Source: a virus. From it: a stretch of 64,000 bases of DNA. Shown here in pieces: positions 1,274 through 24,692 of the stretch. The notes under the pieces were generated by a model. The model had not been told where the DNA came from and did no database searches. It worked only from the letters and a program-made list of their open reading frames with translations. The stretch lies in IMG/VR virus record IMGVR_UViG_3300012685_000002, positions 1 to 64,000 of that record; one strand, 5' to 3'. The position numbers were made by a program, and so were the translations under genes. Position 1 is the stretch's first letter. The number at the start of each line of letters is the position of its first letter.

Positions 1274-1610
1274 GGGACTCACTCTCGACTGGGGTCAACA
1301 ACTCTTTGAGGTTGGCGTCTCCGCTGTTGATCTTCTGAACGATACCCTTGAGCTCGTCAACGGACAAGTGAGAGAAGCGGGAGCGGCGGAGACGCTCTGC
1401 GATACCTTCTGGGTCTTCTTTGAGATTGATGAGGGCCCGGGCTGCCGGGACGCGCTCTTTGTCCGTGCCGTTCACTGCAGCATCGAGCAGGGCAGAGTAG
1501 CCGAGGATGACCCCGAAGAGCTTCAGGGTGTCATAGAGCTGATCGAGGGTCTTGGGAGTAAGCCCTTCCCCGATCAGTGTTTCGAGCTCGGCGATAGCGC
1601 GTTCGTTCAT
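1266..1610 (-). CDS. Small helical protein upstream of terminase, possible small-terminase-like protein
   Basis: 114 residues, predicted mostly helical and charged (for example RRSRFSHLSVDELKGIVQ). Its place as the first gene of the group that leads to terminase makes a DNA-packaging role possible, but no small-terminase motif is recognisable. There is no SD before the ATG at 1610, and the sequence GTGTACTATTGACAC ends immediately upstream. If TACTAT there is the -10 box, the transcript would start at or next to the ATG, giving a leaderless mRNA. Confidence 0.7.
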   Translation of the reverse strand: MNERAIAELETLIGEGLTPKTLDQLYDTLKLFGVILGYSALLDAAVNGTDKERVPAARALINLKEDPEGIAERLRRSRFSHLSVDELKGIVQKINSGDANLKELLTPVESESHG

Positions 1611-1616
1611 GTGTCA

Positions 1617-1645
1617 ATAGTACACGGGGGTTGACAAGATAGCAA
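1617..1645 (-). promoter_or_regulatory. Candidate leftward promoter, TTGCTA-17-TACTAT
   Basis: On the minus strand TTGCTA (1640-1645) is followed after 17 nt by TACTAT (1617-1622). The -10 lies in the 15-mer GTGTACTATTGACAC (1611-1625), which recurs exactly in the capsid promoter at 62357-62371. The -35 match is only fair. Confidence 0.5.
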
Positions 1646-1658
1646 ATAAGGGTATAAT
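1631..1658 (+). promoter_or_regulatory. Consensus sigma70 promoter driving the 1722 gene
   Basis: TTGACA (1631-1636) and TATAAT (1653-1658) both match consensus exactly, with a 16-nt spacer. Predicted start is near 1665, inside a perfect 9-bp hairpin. It is the only clear plus-strand promoter seen and it faces the only convincing plus-strand gene. Confidence 0.85.
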
Positions 1659-1662
1659 AGCT

Positions 1663-1684
1663 GGCAACCCCCGACGGGGTTGCC
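1663..1684 (+). other. Perfect 9-bp hairpin at the 5' end of the plus-strand transcript
   Basis: GGCAACCCC (1663-1671) pairs with GGGGTTGCC (1676-1684) around a 4-nt loop. It would form the first bases of the mRNA, as expected for a 5' stabilising stem or an operator. No U-tract follows, so it is not an intrinsic terminator. Confidence 0.6.
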
Positions 1685-1721
1685 TACGCAGATGATGATG
1701 ACACCTGGAGGGAAAGGGAAT

Positions 1722-1994
1722 ATGAAGTGCCCGCGTTGTGGATACCGTATCAACAGCATGACAGAGGACAAGGTGAAGTTGATGCGGGAGGACTATCCGA
1801 AGGCGTTCTTGCCATGGACGCCACAGGATGATGAGCAGCTCTCTCACATGGCCGCTGCAGGAAAGACACTCGTAGATATGGCGAAGGCCCTACAACGTCA
1901 GCCGACGGCGATCAAGCGACGTATTGATCTGTTGGGAGCCCAAATGGTGGAACCACCGGCCGCCACAGCACCGGTGGATTATCTGCCTGAGTAG
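1722..1994 (+). CDS. Zinc-knuckle plus Myb/SANT-like HTH protein (plus-strand regulator candidate)
   Basis: 90 residues. It opens with CPRCG, half of a zinc ribbon, and then has a Myb-like helical domain at about 30-70 (WTPQDDEQL ... GKTLVDMAKALQRQ ... AIKRRIDLLG), a layout seen in small phage DNA-binding proteins. The ATG at 1722 is chosen because GGAGGGAAAGGG precedes it; an in-frame upstream ATG lacks an SD. It is the only convincing gene on the plus strand and has its own perfect promoter, so it may be an early regulator. The function is inferred. Confidence 0.75.
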   Translation: MKCPRCGYRINSMTEDKVKLMREDYPKAFLPWTPQDDEQLSHMAAAGKTLVDMAKALQRQPTAIKRRIDLLGAQMVEPPAATAPVDYLPE

Positions 1995-8680: not shown

Positions 8681-8790
8681 TTGCCTCAGCAGGACTCGAA
8701 CCTGCGACCTTCCATGTGTGACCGCGTGCAGTTGCTGTCCTCATGCAGGGCGGTATTGAATGGACGCTCTACCAACTGAGCTACGAGGCA
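8681..8790 (-). tRNA. tRNA-Val-like gene with 37-nt insertion in the anticodon loop
   Basis: A nearly canonical tRNA: acceptor TGCCTCG/TGAGGCA (one G-U), TA, D-arm GCTCAGTTGGTAGAGC, anticodon stem TCCAT/ATGGA, variable AGGTC, T-arm GCAGG-TTCGAGT-CCTGC, A73. The loop closed by TCCAT/ATGGA is 44 nt (8716-8759) instead of 7, and the extra bases form ACCGC/GCGGT and TGCA/TGCA helices. Removing 37 nt at either of two positions leaves anticodon CAC (Val). No CCA. A normal Val(CAC) gene is at 23843. Confidence 0.65.
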
Positions 8791-20216: not shown

Positions 20217-20396
20217 CCGTTGATGCTTCACAACTCTTGCCTCACAAGAGGGTCTGGGAAGGGTGGCAGACTGGTGGAGGCAGGCGGAGCGGGGGGCTTG
20301 CCTACCGTGCGTGTTGTATCTGCCCTTTCGCACAGTACAACCAGCGGGGCCGACTTCCCATCAGACGACGTACCGCCTTACGCGGTGTACTGTGAG
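20217..20396. other. Spacer between tRNA operon and the replication genes
   Basis: Contains hairpins ACCGC/GCGGT (near 20370-20385) and CTCTTG/CAAGAG (near 20236-20252) that could slow or end transcription of the tRNA operon, and a possible 19-codon ORF without SD. Nothing else assigned. Confidence 0.4.
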
Positions 20397-20467
20397 TTGG
20401 AGAGGTAGGAGTCGGACCCACATTCGACGGTTCAAGGCCGTCTGTCCTGCCATTGGACGACTCTCCA
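20397..20467 (-). tRNA. tRNA-Gln(TTG)
   Basis: Acceptor TGGAGAG/CTCTCCA perfect; anticodon loop CCTTGAA has C at position 33 instead of U; T-loop TCCGACT; A73; no CCA. Last gene of the operon. Confidence 0.85.
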
Positions 20468-20470
20468 GTA

Positions 20471-20539
20471 CAGCGAGTCTAGGTGTCGATCCCAGGACGG
20501 CAAGTTTTGGAGACTCGCCTGTACGCCGGTACACTCGCT
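20471..20539 (-). tRNA. tRNA-Trp(CCA) with shortened D-arm
   Basis: AGCGAGT/ACTCGCT; loop CTCCAAA; T-stem CTGGG/CCTAG with loop ATCGACA; G73. The D-arm is reduced to GTAC-CGGC-GTAC, giving only 69 nt. Confidence 0.78.
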
Positions 20540-20542
20540 ACA

Positions 20543-20614
20543 TGCAGCAACTAGGAATCGAACCTAGTCTCTCACCCATGTCAAGGGTGCGCGTTCCCAT
20601 CTCGCTCTTGCTGC
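20543..20614 (-). tRNA. tRNA-Val(GAC)
   Basis: GCAGCAA/TTGCTGC; loop TTGACAT; T-loop TTCGATT; A73. Its first base directly follows the deformylase stop codon. Confidence 0.9.
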
Positions 20615-21043
20615 TCAGTAATCGACGATCAACTTGCCCTTCAAGTGATCGAGCTCGTGGAGCAGGACTCTCGCCATCAGTCCTGTGGCGTGGATCTGTT
20701 CCCAGAGACCGTCCACGCTGCGGTAGTCCACGATCACTTCCAGCGACCGCTTCACCGGCTTCGTGATCCCAGGGAGGGAGAGACAGCCTTCCTCCTGTTT
20801 GTTCCGGTTGATCGACTGGGCCCGGAGATGCGGGTTGATCAACGCCAGCTTCTGGTTCTCGATGTTCACCACGATCACTTGCACCGGCTCGCCCACCTGG
20901 ATCGCGGAGAGTCCTACGCCGATCCCTTCTACTGTCTCGAACATGTCGTCGATCAATGTCCGAACCCCGTCGTCGATCTCCTTGAGCGGAAGAGACTTCC
21001 GACGGAGTGCCTTCATATCGAACTCTACGATGGTGCGCTTCAT
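20615..21043 (-). CDS. def: Peptide deformylase
   Basis: 142 residues with all three family motifs: GVGLSAIQVG (about 51-60), EGCLSLPG (Cys ligand, about 95-102) and HELDHLKG (HExxH, about 129-136). It removes the formyl group from nascent proteins; phage versions are short like this one. The ATG at 21043 is 2 nt after the discriminator base of tRNA-Ala (A-CT-ATG) with no SD, and the stop touches tRNA-Val. Translation from a processed, leaderless mRNA is inferred. Confidence 0.93.
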   Translation of the reverse strand: MKRTIVEFDMKALRRKSLPLKEIDDGVRTLIDDMFETVEGIGVGLSAIQVGEPVQVIVVNIENQKLALINPHLRAQSINRNKQEEGCLSLPGITKPVKRSLEVIVDYRSVDGLWEQIHATGLMARVLLHELDHLKGKLIVDY

Positions 21044-21045
21044 AG

Positions 21046-21119
21046 TGGAGGCATGGGGATTCGAACCCCAGTCGCTAGTTTGCGGGACTAGCATAATGCC
21101 CAGACTATACGATACCCCC
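21046..21119 (-). tRNA. tRNA-Ala(CGC)
   Basis: GGGGGTA/TGCCTCC includes the G3-U70 wobble that identifies alanine tRNAs; loop CCCGCAA (C33); T-loop TTCGAAT; A73. Followed after 2 nt by the deformylase ATG. Confidence 0.85.
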
Positions 21120-21123
21120 AAGA

Positions 21124-21326
21124 TGTGTGTTCCGTAGCCGCGATTCTGTTTTATCCCGTCATCTGTCTAAGCCCCAACCCGGGGTTCTCTAGGGTCAAGC
21201 GATCCCCTGTTTGGGTTGCAGCATTGCCGTGGTGCGAACCGCTACCCGCACTGCTTGGCGTCCCACGTCCCCATTGCTGTCGCGAACTTCCTCAGGTCTC
21301 TCGACCCGCGACGGGTCGAACACACA
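21124..21326 (-). ncRNA. rnpB: RNase P RNA (compact, about 203 nt)
   Basis: P1 is TGTGTGTTC/GAACACACA. CR-I reads GAGGAAGTTCGCG and CR-V ACAGAATCGCGGCTA; they form P4 (AAG, bulged U, UCGCG with CGCGG-CUA; the outermost pair is an A-A mismatch). Between them: GTGCGGGTAGCGGTTCGCAC (P12, compare bacterial GUGCGGUAAGAGCGCAC), CACGGCAAT (CACGGUAAA in E. coli), ACCCAAACAGGGG (compare CCAAAUAGGGG), GAACCCCGGGTTGG and AGATGA. So this is a bacterial-type RNase P ribozyme about half the usual size. It lies between two tRNAs in the operon it could process. Confidence 0.88.
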
Positions 21327-21327
21327 G

Positions 21328-21400
21328 TTGGGGGAGCAGGGGTCGAACCTGCACTCTCCGGGTTCAGAGCCCGGCGTGTTGCCAGTTACACCATCCCTCA
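21328..21400 (-). tRNA. tRNA-Gln(CTG)
   Basis: TGAGGGA/TCCCCCA with one A-C mismatch; loop CTCTGAA; D-arm GTGTAACTGGCAACAC; T-loop TTCGACC; A73. One base separates it from the RNase P RNA. Confidence 0.88.
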
Positions 21401-21401
21401 G

Positions 21402-21473
21402 TCTGGCTACCGGGAGTCGAACCCGGACTAAGAGGATCGGAGCCTCTCGTGATGTCCGTTTCACTATAGCCAA
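21402..21473 (-). tRNA. tRNA-Arg(CCG)
   Basis: TTGGCTA/TAGCCAG; loop CTCCGAT; T-arm CCGGG-TTCGACT-CCCGG; A73. Confidence 0.9.
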
Positions 21474-21474
21474 G

Positions 21475-21546
21475 TCCGGCTGGTGGGAGTCGAACCCACA
21501 CTGAAAGGTTCGTAGCCTTTCCGTCTCTCCGTTAGCTTACAGCCGA
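21475..21546 (-). tRNA. tRNA-Arg(ACG)
   Basis: TCGGCTG/CAGCCGG; loop CTACGAA, A34 presumably deaminated to inosine by the host; T-loop TTCGACT; A73. Confidence 0.9.
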
Positions 21547-21547
21547 G

Positions 21548-21620
21548 TTGGACTCCACGGAATCGAACCGCAGCCTGCTGCTTTTCAGGCAGCCGTGCGC
21601 ACCAGCTACACCAGAATCCA
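21548..21620 (-). tRNA. tRNA-Phe(GAA)
   Basis: TGGATTC/GAGTCCA; anticodon arm GCTGC-CTGAAAA-GCAGC; T-loop TTCGATT; A73. Confidence 0.9.
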
Positions 21621-21621
21621 G

Positions 21622-21690
21622 ACCGCTCGGAGGGACTCGAACCCTCATTGCTCCGGTAGAAACGGAGTCGCTGTCCATCAGCACGAGCAG
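21622..21690 (-). tRNA. tRNA-Arg(TCT)
   Basis: CTGCTCG/CGAGCGG; loop TTTCTAC; compact D-arm GCTG-ATGGA-CAGC; T-loop TTCGAGT; T73. 69 nt. Confidence 0.85.
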
Positions 21691-21691
21691 A

Positions 21692-21946
21692 TTAGTGACG
21701 CTCTCGCCACCAACAGCTGGTGGGGCGTCCGATCACTGCTTCCCCGTATACCTTCCGTGTGACGAAGCACACCATCACGGGGCTTCCTACTGCTTGCAAC
21801 CAATACGCTTCGGTCCCGGTTCCATCATAGCTCCGTGGCCAGTAGGCACGTACAGGGCAGCTGGGGCTCGACACGTCTGGACAGTAGCCCATGTCCTTCA
21901 CTGTCAGGCCCTGTGTCATCAGGAGAGCTGCGAGCCAGGTCCACAT
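21692..21946 (-). CDS. Hypothetical 84-aa protein, leaderless-type start after tRNA-Asp
   Basis: MWTWLAALLMTQGLTVKDM may be a short signal or anchor; the rest has five cysteines and many aromatics. The ATG is 1 nt after the discriminator base of tRNA-Asp (G-T-ATG), with no SD, and the stop is 1 nt before tRNA-Arg(TCT). Reality is supported by this exact fit, repeated at four other sites. Confidence 0.6.
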   Translation of the reverse strand: MWTWLAALLMTQGLTVKDMGYCPDVSSPSCPVRAYWPRSYDGTGTEAYWLQAVGSPVMVCFVTRKVYGEAVIGRPTSCWWRERH

Positions 21947-21947
21947 A

Positions 21948-22021
21948 CGCGACTGGAGGGATTCGAACCCTCGCTCTTCTCCGTGACAGGGAGATGGCTT
22001 GGACCGCTAGCCGACAATCGC
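21948..22021 (-). tRNA. tRNA-Asp(GTC)
   Basis: GCGATTG/CAGTCGC; loop CTGTCAC; T-loop TTCGAAT; G73 as usual for Asp. A TGAGATA/TATCTCA hairpin (22024-22048) precedes it. Confidence 0.9.
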
Positions 22022-22051
22022 ATTGAGATAGTTTACTGTCATATCTCAGGA

Positions 22052-22144
22052 CTATGTTCTCTTCACTACTCCACAACGACACAACCAGTACCGACTTGCA
22101 CCCCACGGATAAATAATCCGTGTCCACCAATGTTTGTGTTTCAT
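22052..22144 (-). CDS. Possible 30-aa mini-protein after tRNA-Ser(CGA)
   Basis: Begins MKHKHWWTRIIYPWGASRYW and ends in VVKRT; very aromatic and basic, with CRC. The ATG is 2 nt after G73 of tRNA-Ser (G-CT-ATG), no SD. Codes through an otherwise unassigned gap. Confidence 0.45.
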   Translation of the reverse strand: MKHKHWWTRIIYPWGASRYWLCRCGVVKRT

Positions 22145-22146
22145 AG

Positions 22147-22229
22147 CGGAAGGTCAGAGACTCGAACTCTGGAACCCGTTAGGGCCAGCGGTTTTCGGGA
22201 CCGTTTCCTCGACCGGCCGGACACCTTCC
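22147..22229 (-). tRNA. tRNA-Ser(CGA)
   Basis: GGAAGGT/ACCTTCC perfect; loop CCCGAAA (C33); long variable arm; T-loop TTCGAGT; G73 typical for Ser. Confidence 0.85.
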
Positions 22230-22231
22230 AT

Positions 22232-22318
22232 TTATTGCGGCTGTGCGCTCGCTCCACCATGATCTTCAGGAGCATCTGACAACTCTCGCCATCTACGCAC
22301 AGCTTCATCTGTTGTCAT
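22232..22318 (-). CDS. Possible 28-aa mini-protein after tRNA-Ser(GCT)
   Basis: Begins MTTDEAVRRWRELSDAPEDH and ends GGASAQPQ; helical and charged. The ATG is 1 nt after G73 (G-T-ATG) and the stop 2 nt before tRNA-Ser(CGA). No SD. Confidence 0.5.
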   Translation of the reverse strand: MTTDEAVRRWRELSDAPEDHGGASAQPQ

Positions 22319-22319
22319 A

Positions 22320-22410
22320 CGGAGCGTCCAGGATTCGAACCTGGGTGGGGCCTCTGTGAGACTCCTCTGCGTTAGCACCGCAGCGCATTCAACCGCTCTG
22401 CCAACGCTCC
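22320..22410 (-). tRNA. tRNA-Ser(GCT)
   Basis: GGAGCGT/ACGCTCC; loop GTGCTAA; long variable arm; T-loop TTCGAAT; G73. Confidence 0.92.
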
Positions 22411-22413
22411 AAG

Positions 22414-22493
22414 TCGTGGACCTAGGGTTCGAACCTAGCATGCCGAAGCGTCTGGTTTACAGCCAGGTGGGACACCGTAGTCCCTTGTCCACG
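22414..22493 (-). tRNA. tRNA-Tyr(GTA)
   Basis: CGTGGAC/GTCCACG; loop CTGTAAA; variable arm CGCTTCGGCATG as in bacterial type II Tyr; T-loop TTCGAAC; A73. Confidence 0.9.
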
Positions 22494-22496
22494 AAG

Positions 22497-22563
22497 AGCC
22501 AAGTGCGTGACTCGAACACGCGCTCCCGGTTTACGAAACCGGCGGTCTACCTGTTAACCTAAC
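22497..22563 (-). tRNA. tRNA-Thr(CGT), short
   Basis: GTTAGGT/ACTTGGC with three G-U pairs; anticodon arm CCGGT-TTCGTAA-ACCGG; T-loop TTCGAGT; T73. Only 67 nt, reduced D-arm. Its 5' end overlaps the stop of the 53-aa ORF. Confidence 0.78.
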
Positions 22564-22720
22564 GAGGCGTAAGCTTCTCGAACTTCTTCAGCACATCCTT
22601 GAGCTTCTTCAGCCGGACTCCCTCTGCCACCTGCACGGAGAGTCCATTTCGAAGCGCGTTGCCATAGGCCACGCTGGTCTCTAGCACCAGCTCTCGGATC
22701 TGCTGCATCGTCAACTCCAT
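22559..22720 (-). CDS. Small helical protein (53 aa) after tRNA-Asn
   Basis: Starts MELTMQQIRELVLETSVAYG; a charged helix with a Lys-rich C-terminus (KKLKDVLKKFEKL), typical of a folded small protein. The ATG is 2 nt after G73 of tRNA-Asn (G-TT-ATG) without SD; the stop overlaps tRNA-Thr(CGT) by a few bases. Confidence 0.65.
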   Translation of the reverse strand: MELTMQQIRELVLETSVAYGNALRNGLSVQVAEGVRLKKLKDVLKKFEKLTPR

Positions 22721-22722
22721 AA

Positions 22723-22794
22723 CTGGGACCGGAGGATTCGAACCTCCATCTCAGCGGGTAACAGCCGCGTGACTTGCCATTCGCCCAGATCCCA
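22723..22794 (-). tRNA. tRNA-Asn(GTT)
   Basis: TGGGATC/GGTCCCA; loop CTGTTAC; T-loop TTCGAAT; G73. Confidence 0.9.
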
Positions 22795-22795
22795 A

Positions 22796-22870
22796 TGCAG
22801 TCAGGAGGATTCGAACCTCCACTTGTACCACCTTCTCAGGATGGCCCGTATACCGTTCCGGCATGACTGC
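22796..22870 (-). tRNA. tRNA-Leu(GAG)
   Basis: GCAGTCA/TGACTGC; loop CTGAGAA; variable region unusually short for Leu; T-loop TTCGAAT; A73. Confidence 0.85.
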
Positions 22871-22873
22871 GAG

Positions 22874-22947
22874 TCGTCGGTCGAGGATTCGAACCCCGTG
22901 TCCCCGGTTTATCAGACCGGTACTCCTACCATTCGAGCTGCCCGACG
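22874..22947 (-). tRNA. tRNA-Ile(GAT)
   Basis: CGTCGGG/ACCGACG with one G-A mismatch at 7-66; loop CTGATAA; T-loop TTCGAAT; A73. Confidence 0.88.
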
Positions 22948-22950
22948 AAG

Positions 22951-23023
22951 TTGGCCGCGTGGGCAATGATCCCACAACCTATCGGTTAAGAGCCGATTGC
23001 TCTGCCAGTTGAGCTAGCGACCA
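22951..23023 (-). tRNA. tRNA-Lys(CTT)
   Basis: TGGTCGC/GCGGCCA; D-arm GCTCAACTGGCAGAGC; loop CTCTTAA; T-loop is the odd ATCATTG; A73. Confidence 0.85.
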
Positions 23024-23024
23024 G

Positions 23025-23108
23025 TGCACCTGGGAGGAGTTGAACCTCCATGACCTTGCGGTCACTGGTTTCTGAGACCAGTCTGTCTGCCAGTTCCAGC
23101 ACAGATGC
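23025..23108 (-). tRNA. tRNA-Leu(CAG)
   Basis: GCATCTG/CAGGTGC; loop CTCAGAA; long variable arm TGACCGCAAGGTCA; T-loop TTCAACT; A73. Confidence 0.9.
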
Positions 23109-23178
23109 ATGATCGGTGGGCCGCTAAGCCCTACTCCCTGCCGATCCAGGTAGACGGTAATGAGCCGTCGGGCCCGAG
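23109..23178. other. Unassigned tRNA-operon segment with a CAT-loop hairpin
   Basis: Minus strand has GACGG-CTCATTA-CCGTC, shaped like a Met(CAT) anticodon arm, but no D-arm or normal T-arm. GATCGGTGGGC at 23111-23121 is exactly complementary to GCCCACCGATC at 23331-23341, so the two gaps flanking tRNA-Thr(GGT) and tRNA-Thr(TGT) could pair. Confidence 0.45.
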
Positions 23179-23249
23179 AGCTAAGAGCAGGAATCGAACC
23201 TGCGCTAGCTGCTTACCAAGCAGCTGGTCTACCACTAACCTATCGAAGC
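23179..23249 (-). tRNA. tRNA-Thr(GGT), imperfect acceptor
   Basis: Anticodon arm GCTGC-TTGGTAA-GCAGC and T-arm GCAGG-TTCGATT-CCTGC are perfect, but acceptor GCTTCGA/TCTTAGC has two mismatches; T73. Confidence 0.78.
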
Positions 23250-23252
23250 AAG

Positions 23253-23325
23253 AGCCAGAGGACGGAGTTGAACCGTCACGATCCGCATTACAAGTGCGGC
23301 TTGGCATCCCGATAGCCGCTCTGAC
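23253..23325 (-). tRNA. tRNA-Thr(TGT)
   Basis: GTCAGAG/CTCTGGC; loop CTTGTAA; T-loop TTCAACT; T73. Confidence 0.9.
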
Positions 23326-23374
23326 GTGAAGCCCACCGATCCGCAGACCAGGGGCTAGTCTCTTCTATGTACAG

Positions 23375-23447
23375 TGCTGCTCGAAGGACTCGAACCTTCA
23401 GTCAGCTGGGTTTGAGCCAGCCCCGTCTACCGTTGCGGCAGAGCAGC
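23375..23447 (-). tRNA. tRNA-Leu(CAA)
   Basis: GCTGCTC/GAGCAGC perfect; anticodon arm GCTGG-CTCAAAC-CCAGC; short variable region; T-loop TTCGAGT; A73. Confidence 0.9.
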
Positions 23448-23454
23448 AATGCTA

Positions 23455-23595
23455 CTACTTCTTCCCAGCGTGCTTGAAGTACTCGACCTGCCGTTCCCGC
23501 TTCACTGCGGCGGCCTTGCTCCCAGGCTTCGAGAGGGGCTTGCCGGTCTTCTTGCTCTTCAGAACGAACTTCCCGCCGGTCTTCACGATGGTCAT
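23455..23595 (-). CDS. Small basic protein (46 aa) inside the tRNA operon
   Basis: Begins MTIVKTGGKFVLKSKKTGK; beta-hairpin-like start then a Lys-rich helix ending HAGKK. Unlike the other operon ORFs it has an SD (AAGGGGA) before the ATG at 23595, 22 nt after tRNA-Glu. Size and charge suit an RNA- or ribosome-binding protein, by inference. Confidence 0.75.
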   Translation of the reverse strand: MTIVKTGGKFVLKSKKTGKPLSKPGSKAAAVKRERQVEYFKHAGKK

Positions 23596-23617
23596 ACATT
23601 CCCCTTGCACAGGTGAG

Positions 23618-23690
23618 TCAGGAGCAGGGGATTCGCACCCCTGTCTGGACCTTGAGAGGGTCCTGTCCTAGGCTCCTAGACGAGCCCCTG
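23618..23690 (-). tRNA. tRNA-Glu(CTC)
   Basis: CAGGGGC/GCTCCTG; D-arm GTCTAGGAGCCTAGGAC; anticodon arm GGACC-CTCTCAA-GGTCC; T-loop TGCGAAT (G55); A73. Reference for the interrupted Glu genes. Confidence 0.9.
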
Positions 23691-23691
23691 A

Positions 23692-23765
23692 TGGCAGAGG
23701 AGGGAGTCGAACCCTCGGATTCCAGTTTATGAGACTGGCGCAGGAGCCGTGCCTGCTCCTCTGCT
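23692..23765 (-). tRNA. tRNA-Met(CAT)
   Basis: AGCAGAG/CTCTGCC with an A1-C72 mismatch reminiscent of initiators, but the anticodon stem CCAGT/ACTGG lacks the three G-C pairs of bacterial initiators; loop CTCATAA; A73. A CAT tRNA could also be an Ile tRNA needing lysidine. Confidence 0.85.
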
Positions 23766-23769
23766 CTAG

Positions 23770-23841
23770 TTGGCCGACTGGGACTCGAACCCAGACCTTA
23801 CCGCTTAAAAGGCGGATGTGCTGCGTTCACACTATCGACCA
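23770..23841 (-). tRNA. tRNA-Lys(TTT)
   Basis: TGGTCGA/TCGGCCA; loop CTTTTAA; D-arm GTGTGAACGCAGCAC; T-loop TTCGAGT; A73. Confidence 0.9.
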
Positions 23842-23842
23842 G

Positions 23843-23914
23843 TTGGAAATCAGGGGATCGAACCCTGGGCCTCTCGGATGTGAGCCGAGCGCTCTACCGC
23901 TGAGCTAATCTCCA
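23843..23914 (-). tRNA. tRNA-Val(CAC)
   Basis: TGGAGAT/ATTTCCA; D-arm GCTCAGCGGTAGAGC; loop CTCACAT; T-loop TTCGATC; A73. Confidence 0.92.
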
Positions 23915-23915
23915 G

Positions 23916-23987
23916 AGCATCTGGCGGGTGCTGCCCCCGCTGCTTCCACCTTGGCAAGGTGGCAGTCTGCTGTTGACTTACAGATGC
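23916..23987 (-). tRNA. tRNA-Gly(GCC)
   Basis: GCATCTG/CAGATGC perfect; loop TTGCCAA; T-stem GCGGG/CCCGC encloses the very unusual loop GGCAGCA; T73. Confidence 0.85.
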
Positions 23988-24079
23988 AGTACCCGCGTTT
24001 AATGAGGTAGCGGGGATCTCAGGACGAGAACCAGGGGCACCATCGCGAAGCTGTTTACCGTGAGTCGCGATCTCACTCA
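23988..24079. other. 92-nt gap in the tRNA operon
   Basis: Holds GTGAG/CTCAC and ATCGCG/CGCGAT helices and a possible 25-codon ORF starting GTG 3 nt after tRNA-Gly(TCC). Not enough to call a gene. Confidence 0.35.
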
Positions 24080-24150
24080 AGCACCAGGCGGGAATCGGAC
24101 CCGCGTGTCAAGTTTGGAAGACTTGCGCGCAGCCACTACGCCACTGATGC
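24080..24150 (-). tRNA. tRNA-Gly(TCC)
   Basis: GCATCAG/CTGGTGC; D-arm GCGTAGTGGCTGCGC; loop CTTCCAA; T-loop TCCGATT; T73. Confidence 0.9.
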
Positions 24151-24153
24151 ACA

Positions 24154-24225
24154 TGGGAGAGGAGGGTTCCGACCCCTCTTCTGGAGTTTGAAGGACTCCT
24201 GTCCTAGCCAGTAGACGAATCTCCC
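24154..24225 (-). tRNA. tRNA-Glu(TTC)
   Basis: GGGAGAT/CTCTCCC with one T-C mismatch; D-arm GTCTACTGGCTAGGAC; loop CCTTCAA (C33); T-stem GAGGG/CCCTC with loop GTCGGAA; A73. Confidence 0.85.
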
Positions 24226-24227
24226 GG

Positions 24228-24298
24228 GGTGCTGTACGGGGTACGATCCCGTTCCTGAGCCTTCACAGGGCTCAATGCTTCCATTACACCACCAGCAC
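24228..24298 (-). tRNA. tRNA-His(GTG)
   Basis: GTGCTGG/ACAGCAC; anticodon arm GAGCC-CTGTGAA-GGCTC; T-loop ATCGTAC; C73, the His discriminator. Confidence 0.88.
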
Positions 24299-24300
24299 AG

Positions 24301-24372
24301 ACAGTAGGGTGGGGATCGAACCCACGTTGCTGGGTTTGCAGTCCAGCGCCTGAACCACTCGGCTACCTACTG
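24301..24372 (-). tRNA. tRNA-Cys(GCA)
   Basis: CAGTAGG/CCTACTG; loop CTGCAAA; T-loop TTCGATC; T73 as in bacterial Cys (U73). Confidence 0.9.
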
Positions 24373-24375
24373 AAG

Positions 24376-24447
24376 TCAGTGATGCAGGAGTCGCACCTGC
24401 CTGATCGTGCTCCCAAAGCACGCGCCTGTCTGCTAGGCTAATCACTG
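24376..24447 (-). tRNA. tRNA-Pro(TGG)
   Basis: CAGTGAT/ATCACTG; anticodon arm CGTGC-TTTGGGA-GCACG; T-loop TGCGACT (G55); A73. Confidence 0.9.
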
Positions 24448-24616
24448 AAGGTGACCACTTCATTCGTAGGCTGGTCACCCACCCACGCCAGTTCGTTTCG
24501 GACGACTGGCTATCCGATAGAGGAGGAGGAGAGGAGGCGTTGCCGCCCGCTTCTGCCGGTGAGTTACCCCATCCAGCATGTTGTATATCTGCCCGGGGCA
24601 GAGTCTCCGTGTCGAG
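24448..24616. other. Spacer between the two tRNA-Pro genes
   Basis: Contains a perfect GGTGACC/GGTCACC hairpin (24451-24480), a CCAGT/ACTGG hairpin beside it, and a 34-codon frame (MLDGVTHRQKRAATPP start) without SD. No gene called. Confidence 0.4.
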
Positions 24617-24692
24617 TCGGGGCTGCTGGAATCGAACCAGCCTGATGCCTCGCTTCCGAAGCGAGTGGCCCGAGCCTTGAGCCCGAACCCCG
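24617..24692 (-). tRNA. tRNA-Pro(CGG), first gene of the operon
   Basis: CGGGGTT/AGCCCCG; anticodon arm CTCGC-TTCGGAA-GCGAG; T-loop TTCGATT; A73. Its 5' end is about 7 nt after the predicted transcription start. Confidence 0.9.

Follow-up and report, generated by a model that had tools for sequence, protein, structure and literature searches.

The RNA of RNase P is generally regarded as a cellular gene. Bacterial RNase P RNAs are usually 350–400 nt long, and in type A the specificity domain comprises P7 to P14. A further form, the T-type (type P) RNase P RNA, was reportedly described from the Thermoproteaceae by Lai et al. in 2010. An excerpt of PMC7191817 gives the lengths of T-type RNAs as 195–215 nt. 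According to an excerpt of PMC8172020, the CPR bacteria have diverged RNase P RNAs in which helices are missing and which were found only by lowering the Infernal threshold; missing helices are what these RNAs have in common with the phage RNAs described below, but as presented there they are cellular genes, unlike ribozymes of phage tRNA arrays. The theta ribozymes of gut phages are located beside phage tRNA genes and have a proposed role in tRNA maturation (PMC10879173, in excerpt); these are described as small, HDV-like, self-cleaving RNAs acting at tRNA 3' ends, whereas RNase P acts at 5' ends and in trans. Among the listed matches in open-licence PMC, we found no earlier report of a phage-encoded RNase P RNA. 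Term searches found no mention of RNase P in a huge-phage paper (PMC7162821), in two jumbo-phage reviews (PMC7824862 and PMC13282480), or in the DLP6 paper (PMC5349666), and no mention of phage or virus in the P finder paper (PMC7191817) or in a paper on RNase P evolution (PMC12974513).

The RNA described here is encoded at positions 21124–21326, on the minus strand, of the window, by which we mean the whole stretch of DNA that was analyzed (64,000 bases out of a 67,410-base virus record). By its anatomy we class it with the RNase P RNAs, as a new structural variant that is carried by viruses. Like the bacterial type A (RF00010), it has P1 to P5, the P6 pseudoknot, P7, P15 with a GGU, CR-I, and CR-V, and RF00010 is the best match for some of its viral relatives (54.7 bits for locus L017, 84.9 for L089, 51.3 for L101, and 71.7 to 118.5 for L103–L106). 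Unlike type A, the phage RNAs are 192–306 nt long, are encoded in phage tRNA arrays, and have a mere stub as specificity domain; as this domain is missing, they are not type A proper. The best Rfam match of the window RNA is the archaeal RNase P RNA (RF00373), over the full model length, but the cultured carriers are bacteriophages and one record encodes a bacterial-type RnpA; the match probably reflects a shared lack of domains. By length and domain make-up, the 203-nt window RNA can also be likened to the T-type RNA, which consists of a catalytic domain with almost no specificity domain, although the T-type occurs in hyperthermophilic archaea whereas the cultured phage carriers infect bacteria.

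Dozens of viruses, some of them cultured, carry relatives that standard RNA searches have mostly passed over. Such a viral branch, most of which escapes the current covariance thresholds, would extend the translational self-reliance of phages to tRNA processing, and its near-minimal bacterial-type RNase P RNAs would represent natural experiments on the purpose of the specificity domain as well as short ribozymes for structural work.

The RNA between tRNA-Ala and tRNA-Gln

The 67,410-base record carries a 123-base direct repeat at its ends (positions 1–123 are identical to the last 123), as expected for a complete circular or terminally redundant assembly, which suggests that it represents a complete genome. 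Judging from its gene matches, the virus is a tailed phage: it encodes a major head protein (phrog_14242, E 1.6e-26), its record contains a terminase match (E 5.4e-13), and other matches are to a family A DNA polymerase, a uracil-DNA glycosylase-like protein, and a peptide deformylase.

ARAGORN identifies an array of 30 tRNAs at 20396–24692, all on the minus strand; the count of 33 in an earlier note on this DNA, made from the letters alone, was not confirmed. Rfam reports 24 tRNAs above the gathering threshold in the window, one of which (8681–8790) lies outside the array. The gaps between neighboring tRNAs are 4 nt or less in 16 of the 29 pairs of the array, and the gap between tRNA-Ala and tRNA-Gln is 207 nt, all but 4 nt of it occupied by the RNase P RNA. 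With respect to the transcript, tRNA-Gln(ctg) is located directly upstream (21327–21400, minus strand, by ARAGORN; Rfam 61.3 bits) and tRNA-Ala(cgc) downstream (21045–21119, minus strand, by ARAGORN; Rfam 48.9 bits). As for the spacing given in the earlier note, tRNA-Ala begins 4 nt from the RNA, and tRNA-Gln is 1 nt away by its Rfam end or 0 nt by its ARAGORN end. The peptide deformylase gene (20615–21121, minus strand; Pfam E 7.4e-38) is also found within the array, where it adjoins tRNA-Ala.

In a search of 370 nt, RF00373 matches positions 21123–21327 of the minus strand with its model positions 1–288, at 48.9 bits and E 5.8e-13. The covariance check that the earlier note had proposed thus gives a match that is significant by E-value and does not reach the gathering score of 84, a threshold that is a curator's cut-off and no trait of the molecule. 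Lying below this cut-off, the RNA is missed by a default Rfam scan, which at gathering thresholds finds no RNase P in the window, all 24 matches being tRNAs; it was also missed at a coarse first look with RF00010 and RF00373 over the whole record. A CR-I/CR-IV pattern, derived from the window RNA itself, matches the window at a single place and none of 100 shuffles. R1, the family model described below, gives 159.7 bits at 21122–21328, the window RNA being among its 38 training sequences. What speaks for a chance resemblance is the score below gathering, together with an ordinary folding energy (z −1.57, equaled or surpassed by 14 of 200 shuffles); as the folding of this one sequence does not stand out, the case for an RNase P RNA rests on comparison. 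This comparison supports a phage-encoded, compact homologue of RNase P RNA within the tRNA array, 203 nt from P1 end to P1 end on the minus strand by RF00373 and R1, as the earlier note had proposed for 21124–21326, and by the anatomy tested the RNA belongs to the RNase P RNA clan (Rfam CL00002).

All elements of this anatomy lie on the minus strand. The two ends pair over the 9 bp that had been noticed at the outset, as P1 (21318–21326 with 21124–21132); across the family all nine columns show changes on both sides and 81.4% of cells are paired, figures that are biased, since of the possible P1 helices the best was taken. P2 (21310–21315 with 21155–21160) shows both-side changes in 6/6 family pairs, and P3 is a hairpin (21293–21308) with 6 bp in the window and, in the four columns counted for the family, 92.8% of cells paired. 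The letters of CR-I, GAGGAAGUUC (21284–21293), were fixed by the search pattern. After CR-I, the 5' strand of P4 with its bulged U (21280–21288) pairs with the 3' strand at the end of CR-V (21136–21143), so that the P4 formed by CR-I and CR-V in the earlier note is indeed present; across the family 99.3% of its cells are paired, with both-side changes in four of the eight pairs and the remaining four invariant. CR-V of the window RNA (21144–21164; AGAUGA ... ACAGAA) reads ACAGAAUCGCGGCUAC, the ACAGRA letters being fixed by the search patterns. P5 (21275–21279 with 21219–21223) shows both-side changes in 4/4 counted family pairs, and P1, P2, P3, and P5 stand in RNase P order.

The P6 pseudoknot pairs 21269–21273 with 21190–21194, inside the P15 loop, and was assessed by the permutation test given below; the window's own P6 (score 11.5) is among the weaker ones in the family. 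P7 (21263–21267 with 21228–21232) closes the remnant of the specificity domain (21228–21267); it encloses 30 nt with one hairpin in the window, and 16–54 nt, with a median of 24, in 38 relatives. P15 (21173–21215) consists of two stems with both-side changes in 7/7 family pairs, 100% of cells being paired in the lower stem and 96.6% in the upper. Its GGU (21177–21179), the expected contact for the 3' end of a tRNA, is invariant in 38/38 aligned relatives and was free of selection by the search patterns. The first list of elements had lacked P5, P6, P7, and the GGU of P15, all of which are present in the window RNA, and had included a CACGGYAA box, which is not conserved among relatives, and the name P12 for the hairpin within P7, for which the alignment gives no support.

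Viral relatives and covariation

A scan of viral contigs with a CR-V pattern gave four stretches, namely L014 (the window's own RNA), L013 and L016 (identical RNAs), and L015; all are RNaseP_arch matches below gathering (40.8 to 49.3 bits) and lie beside tRNAs. With L015 as query, BLAST retrieved a phage in culture, Stenotrophomonas phage DLP_6 (81.4% identity across 72% of the query, E 8e-19), in which the RNA is unannotated, ends 7 nt ahead of a tRNA-Arg, and has an RNaseP_bact_a match of 54.7 bits (E 2e-14). Relatives were also found in two records of huge phages, 595 kb and 735 kb in size, for whose copies Rfam at E 0.5 gives no RNase P match. The pattern GAGGAAGT ... ACAGRANNNNGGCTAC, used with two different spacings, matched 28 and 36 stretches on viral contigs; 56 of the 64 were accepted, with five or six of six P4 positions paired, and the other eight, in which 0 to 2 of the six pair, were dropped as chance. 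With identical cores merged and the window, L017, L018, and L020 added, the set comprises 46 distinct sequences, the window's included, with lengths from 192 to 306 nt when the P1 ends are set automatically; as some of these loci are mutually close, they do not amount to as many independent events.

Several candidates were set aside. L019 and L021 have no RNase P match, and BLAST matches within protein genes or without RNase P features were discarded. H63/L107 and H61/L109 were left out as probable host DNA, being ordinary RNase P RNAs beside host-type genes (fabI and engB in L107, MW495066.1; coaD in L109, CAKLQF020000022.1), both filed as phages. A scan of genome contigs at one spacing (130–160) gave four stretches, one of which is a Micrarchaeota locus with an R1 score of 34.3 bits; the other three, with 12.4 to 15.0 bits and four to five of six P4 positions paired, two of them fixed by the pattern, were taken as chance.

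Later BLAST searches added four records, among them the Microbacterium foliorum phages Zooman, Big4, and A3Wally. The RNA of Zooman and of Big4 takes up the interval between two tRNA-Arg genes, and that of A3Wally is flanked by genes annotated as tRNA-Pro; the RNAs of these phages fall outside the search patterns, with UAGGAAGU in Big4 and GAGGAAAGU in A3Wally. When CR-I and CR-V were sought in their cellular form, compactly spaced, four loci with three distinct RNAs came up (Rfam RNase P 71.7 to 118.5 bits), among which L105 exceeds the RF00010 gathering score of 100. This RNA (L105:10596–10802, RF00010 118.5 bits, from a 190,723-base viral record) appears by eye to be internally deleted relative to the RNase P RNA of E. 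coli, and is perhaps a recent, damaged capture.

Alignment A1 was made from sequence only and holds 38 of the 46 relatives, the ends of some trimmed; L036, L068, L069, L071, L083, L089, L092, and L093 were held out, L069 and L083 being near-duplicates of A1 members. The model evaluated on A1 has 46 pairs, in P1, P2, P3, P4, P5, P7, the hairpin inside P7, and the two stems of P15. Standard pairs occupy 93.2% of cells (38 aligned relatives, 46 pairs) versus 64.0% (sd 0.8) in shuffles, both-side changes occur in 40/46 pairs versus 32.6 and in 498 cells versus 149.0, and the covariation score is 0.734 versus 0.183; not one of 500 shuffles attains any of the four values. Relatedness alone can beat shuffles, but controls with the partners slid by 1 to 3 columns retain relatedness, and in these 31 to 44% of cells are paired. 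RNAalifold, unaided, predicts 35 pairs on A1, 29 of them with both-side changes. P6, between the P5–P7 joiner and the P15 loop, was tested separately and without column pairing: Its own-partner score is 15.7 versus 10.2 for swapped partners, a difference reached in 0 of 5,000 permutations, with the own partner being the single best in 16 of the 38 rows only. The letters of CR-I and CR-V were fixed by the patterns, whereas P2, P3, P5, P6, P7, P15, and the outer four pairs of P4 were free. The comparison demonstrates homology, a conserved catalytic anatomy, and covariation at the level of sequence. That the RNA is a functionless, degraded copy of a host rnpB is a reading to which the internally deleted appearance of L105, at least, would lend itself; with pairing and both-side changes maintained to this extent (93.2% of cells, 40/46 pairs) across divergent phages, we regard it as very unlikely.

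The RNAs of Big4 and Zooman are close to those of A3Wally and L106 (mean column identity 94%, four sequences), and between these groups P4 differs as AAG-U-CC with GGCUU and AGU-U-CC with GGGCU. Among these Microbacterium phage RNAs, both partners have changed in two base pairs of P4, with the bulged U retained. Both forms are found in viruses; as the patterns selected the AGU-U-CC/GGGCU form for most relatives, its frequency is uninformative.

The covariance model R1 was built from A1 (an alignment excluding the window, A2, misaligned P7 and was unused). It finds all eight held-out loci, six at 41.5 to 121.9 bits and the two near-duplicates at 166.7 and 167.0 bits, and scores Zooman at 83.1 and Big4 at 80.7 bits. 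Controls included all 13 chance stretches from a pattern with one N too many, eight of which were scanned with Rfam at E 0.1 and gave no match; on 21 chance-match loci R1 gives 15.2 bits or less. Matches were obtained in 13/13 whole phage records tried, eight of which had supplied training sequences. Of 14 further loci, namely Big4 and 13 from the set of 46, Rfam detects four at E 0.01, none above gathering. Cellular-type RNAs score up to 34.3 bits with R1 (the Micrarchaeota locus; 30.4 and 25.7 bits for two probable host fragments) and the weakest viral copy, L105, 38.0 bits, so the margin is narrow at the low end. A chance resemblance was rejected and is, in our estimation, exceedingly improbable, given the RF00373 match at E 5.8e-13, the covariation of the family, and the separation by R1 of held-out relatives, at 41.5 bits or more, from chance-match loci.

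tRNA linkage, RnpA, and the putative role of the RNA

tRNA genes are present at 42/46 loci, and in 42/42 of these the nearest one lies on the strand of the RNA; none were found at the 21 chance-match control loci. This linkage, too, is demonstrated from sequence. The nearest tRNA is within 10 nt in 20/46 loci and within 1 kb in 36/46. A captured and functional ribozyme with main substrates other than phage tRNAs, such as RNAs of the host or of defence, would be in keeping with the four loci that have no tRNA nearby (L018, L020, L040, and L062) and with the six at which the nearest is more than 1 kb away, but is improbable in view of the closeness at the remaining loci and of the controls. Host contamination as the source of the RNAs in the viral records is unlikely. 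A 16S match was found in 0/32 of these records, a weak result as the same search found 16S in 9/14 control genomes only; of the 32 records, 12 have a match above the cut-off to the single terminase family used, and the window's record has the 123-base end repeat given above.

We consider it likely that the packed phage tRNAs are matured by the window RNA, acting as an active, compact ribozyme together with host RnpA. The RNA would be produced within the transcript of the phage tRNA array. Its catalytic domain is complete (P1 to P5, P15 with a GGU loop that would bind the tRNA end, and the pseudoknot P6), and its specificity domain has been lost almost entirely, with a stub remaining. Bound to host RnpA, or in one huge phage perhaps to RnpA of the phage, the ribozyme would cut the 5' ends of the abundant, closely packed phage pre-tRNAs during infection. 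The 3' end of the ribozyme itself would be made by an RNase P cut ahead of tRNA-Ala, and its 5' end would be freed by the 3' maturation of tRNA-Gln. Transcription, catalysis, partnership with RnpA, and self-release are steps that we infer. In an excerpt of PMC5839562, the catalytic domains of the E. coli and P. furiosus RNAs cleave without the specificity domain, that of E. coli at reduced efficiency. In principle, the host enzyme might also suffice for phages that carry this RNA.

The bacterial GGU pairs with the 3' RCCA of tRNAs (PMC4919922, in excerpt). At their ARAGORN ends 0/30 window tRNAs encode CCA, and this absence of the usual partner of the GGU counts against an active ribozyme. CU follows the discriminator in 16 of the 24 Rfam-defined window tRNAs (expected 6.8%, binomial 8.5e-14, noticed post hoc), and N-C-U is able to pair with GGU if one wobble is admitted; the CU of these CCA-less tRNAs is a puzzle and perhaps a clue. 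In the CCA-less tRNAs of the window, L080, L067, and L036, C74 is conserved, a count that the choice of ends by ARAGORN may favor, and the next base is lineage-specific: After C, U is found at 22/24 ARAGORN ends in L080, and A at 8/8 in L067 and 6/6 in L036.

RnpA (PF00825) was found in 1 of 39 distinct records (1/32 in a first set and 0/8 in a second, one record being shared), and the search of the window's record found none. As most records are perhaps fragments, these absences are weak, with the window's record providing the clearest one. With RnpA missing from 38/39 records, the protein partner must be borrowed, and the gene pattern fits host RnpA as the partner of the phage RNA. The same scarcity of RnpA genes, as well as the reduction of the specificity domain to a stub, would also be compatible with a decoy or inhibitor, a noncatalytic RNA that sequesters host RnpA or pre-tRNAs by a retained binding core. 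We think this hardly probable, as an active site would be dispensable for a decoy but P4 with its bulged U is the best-kept helix, with compensatory repair, and the position among tRNA genes of the same strand fits processing better.

The record with RnpA has 476,236 bases, a terminase match, and no 16S match, and encodes the RNase P RNA at 354985–355198 and RnpA at 440379–440669, about 85 kb away. This RnpA has 99 residues (Pfam Ribonuclease_P, E 3.4e-13), with 4jg4 (E 3.4e-4) as its best solved relative. Beyond the active ribozyme that we favor for the window, the wider proposition would be that tailed phages own an RNase P, a viral ribozyme that is joined by viral RnpA in at least one huge phage and frees both the tRNA array and itself; on this our opinion is evenly balanced. 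If true, maturation of phage tRNAs would be independent of the host enzyme, and at least one huge phage would have a complete viral RNase P holoenzyme. As carrier phages of Microbacterium foliorum are in culture, the question is directly testable.

In locus L099, from the 476-kb phage record, the RnpA gene (1498–1797, minus strand) adjoins a Clp protease gene. ARAGORN also predicts tmRNA genes in L056, L076, and L102, phages that carry an RNase P RNA as well, with DLP_6 among them.
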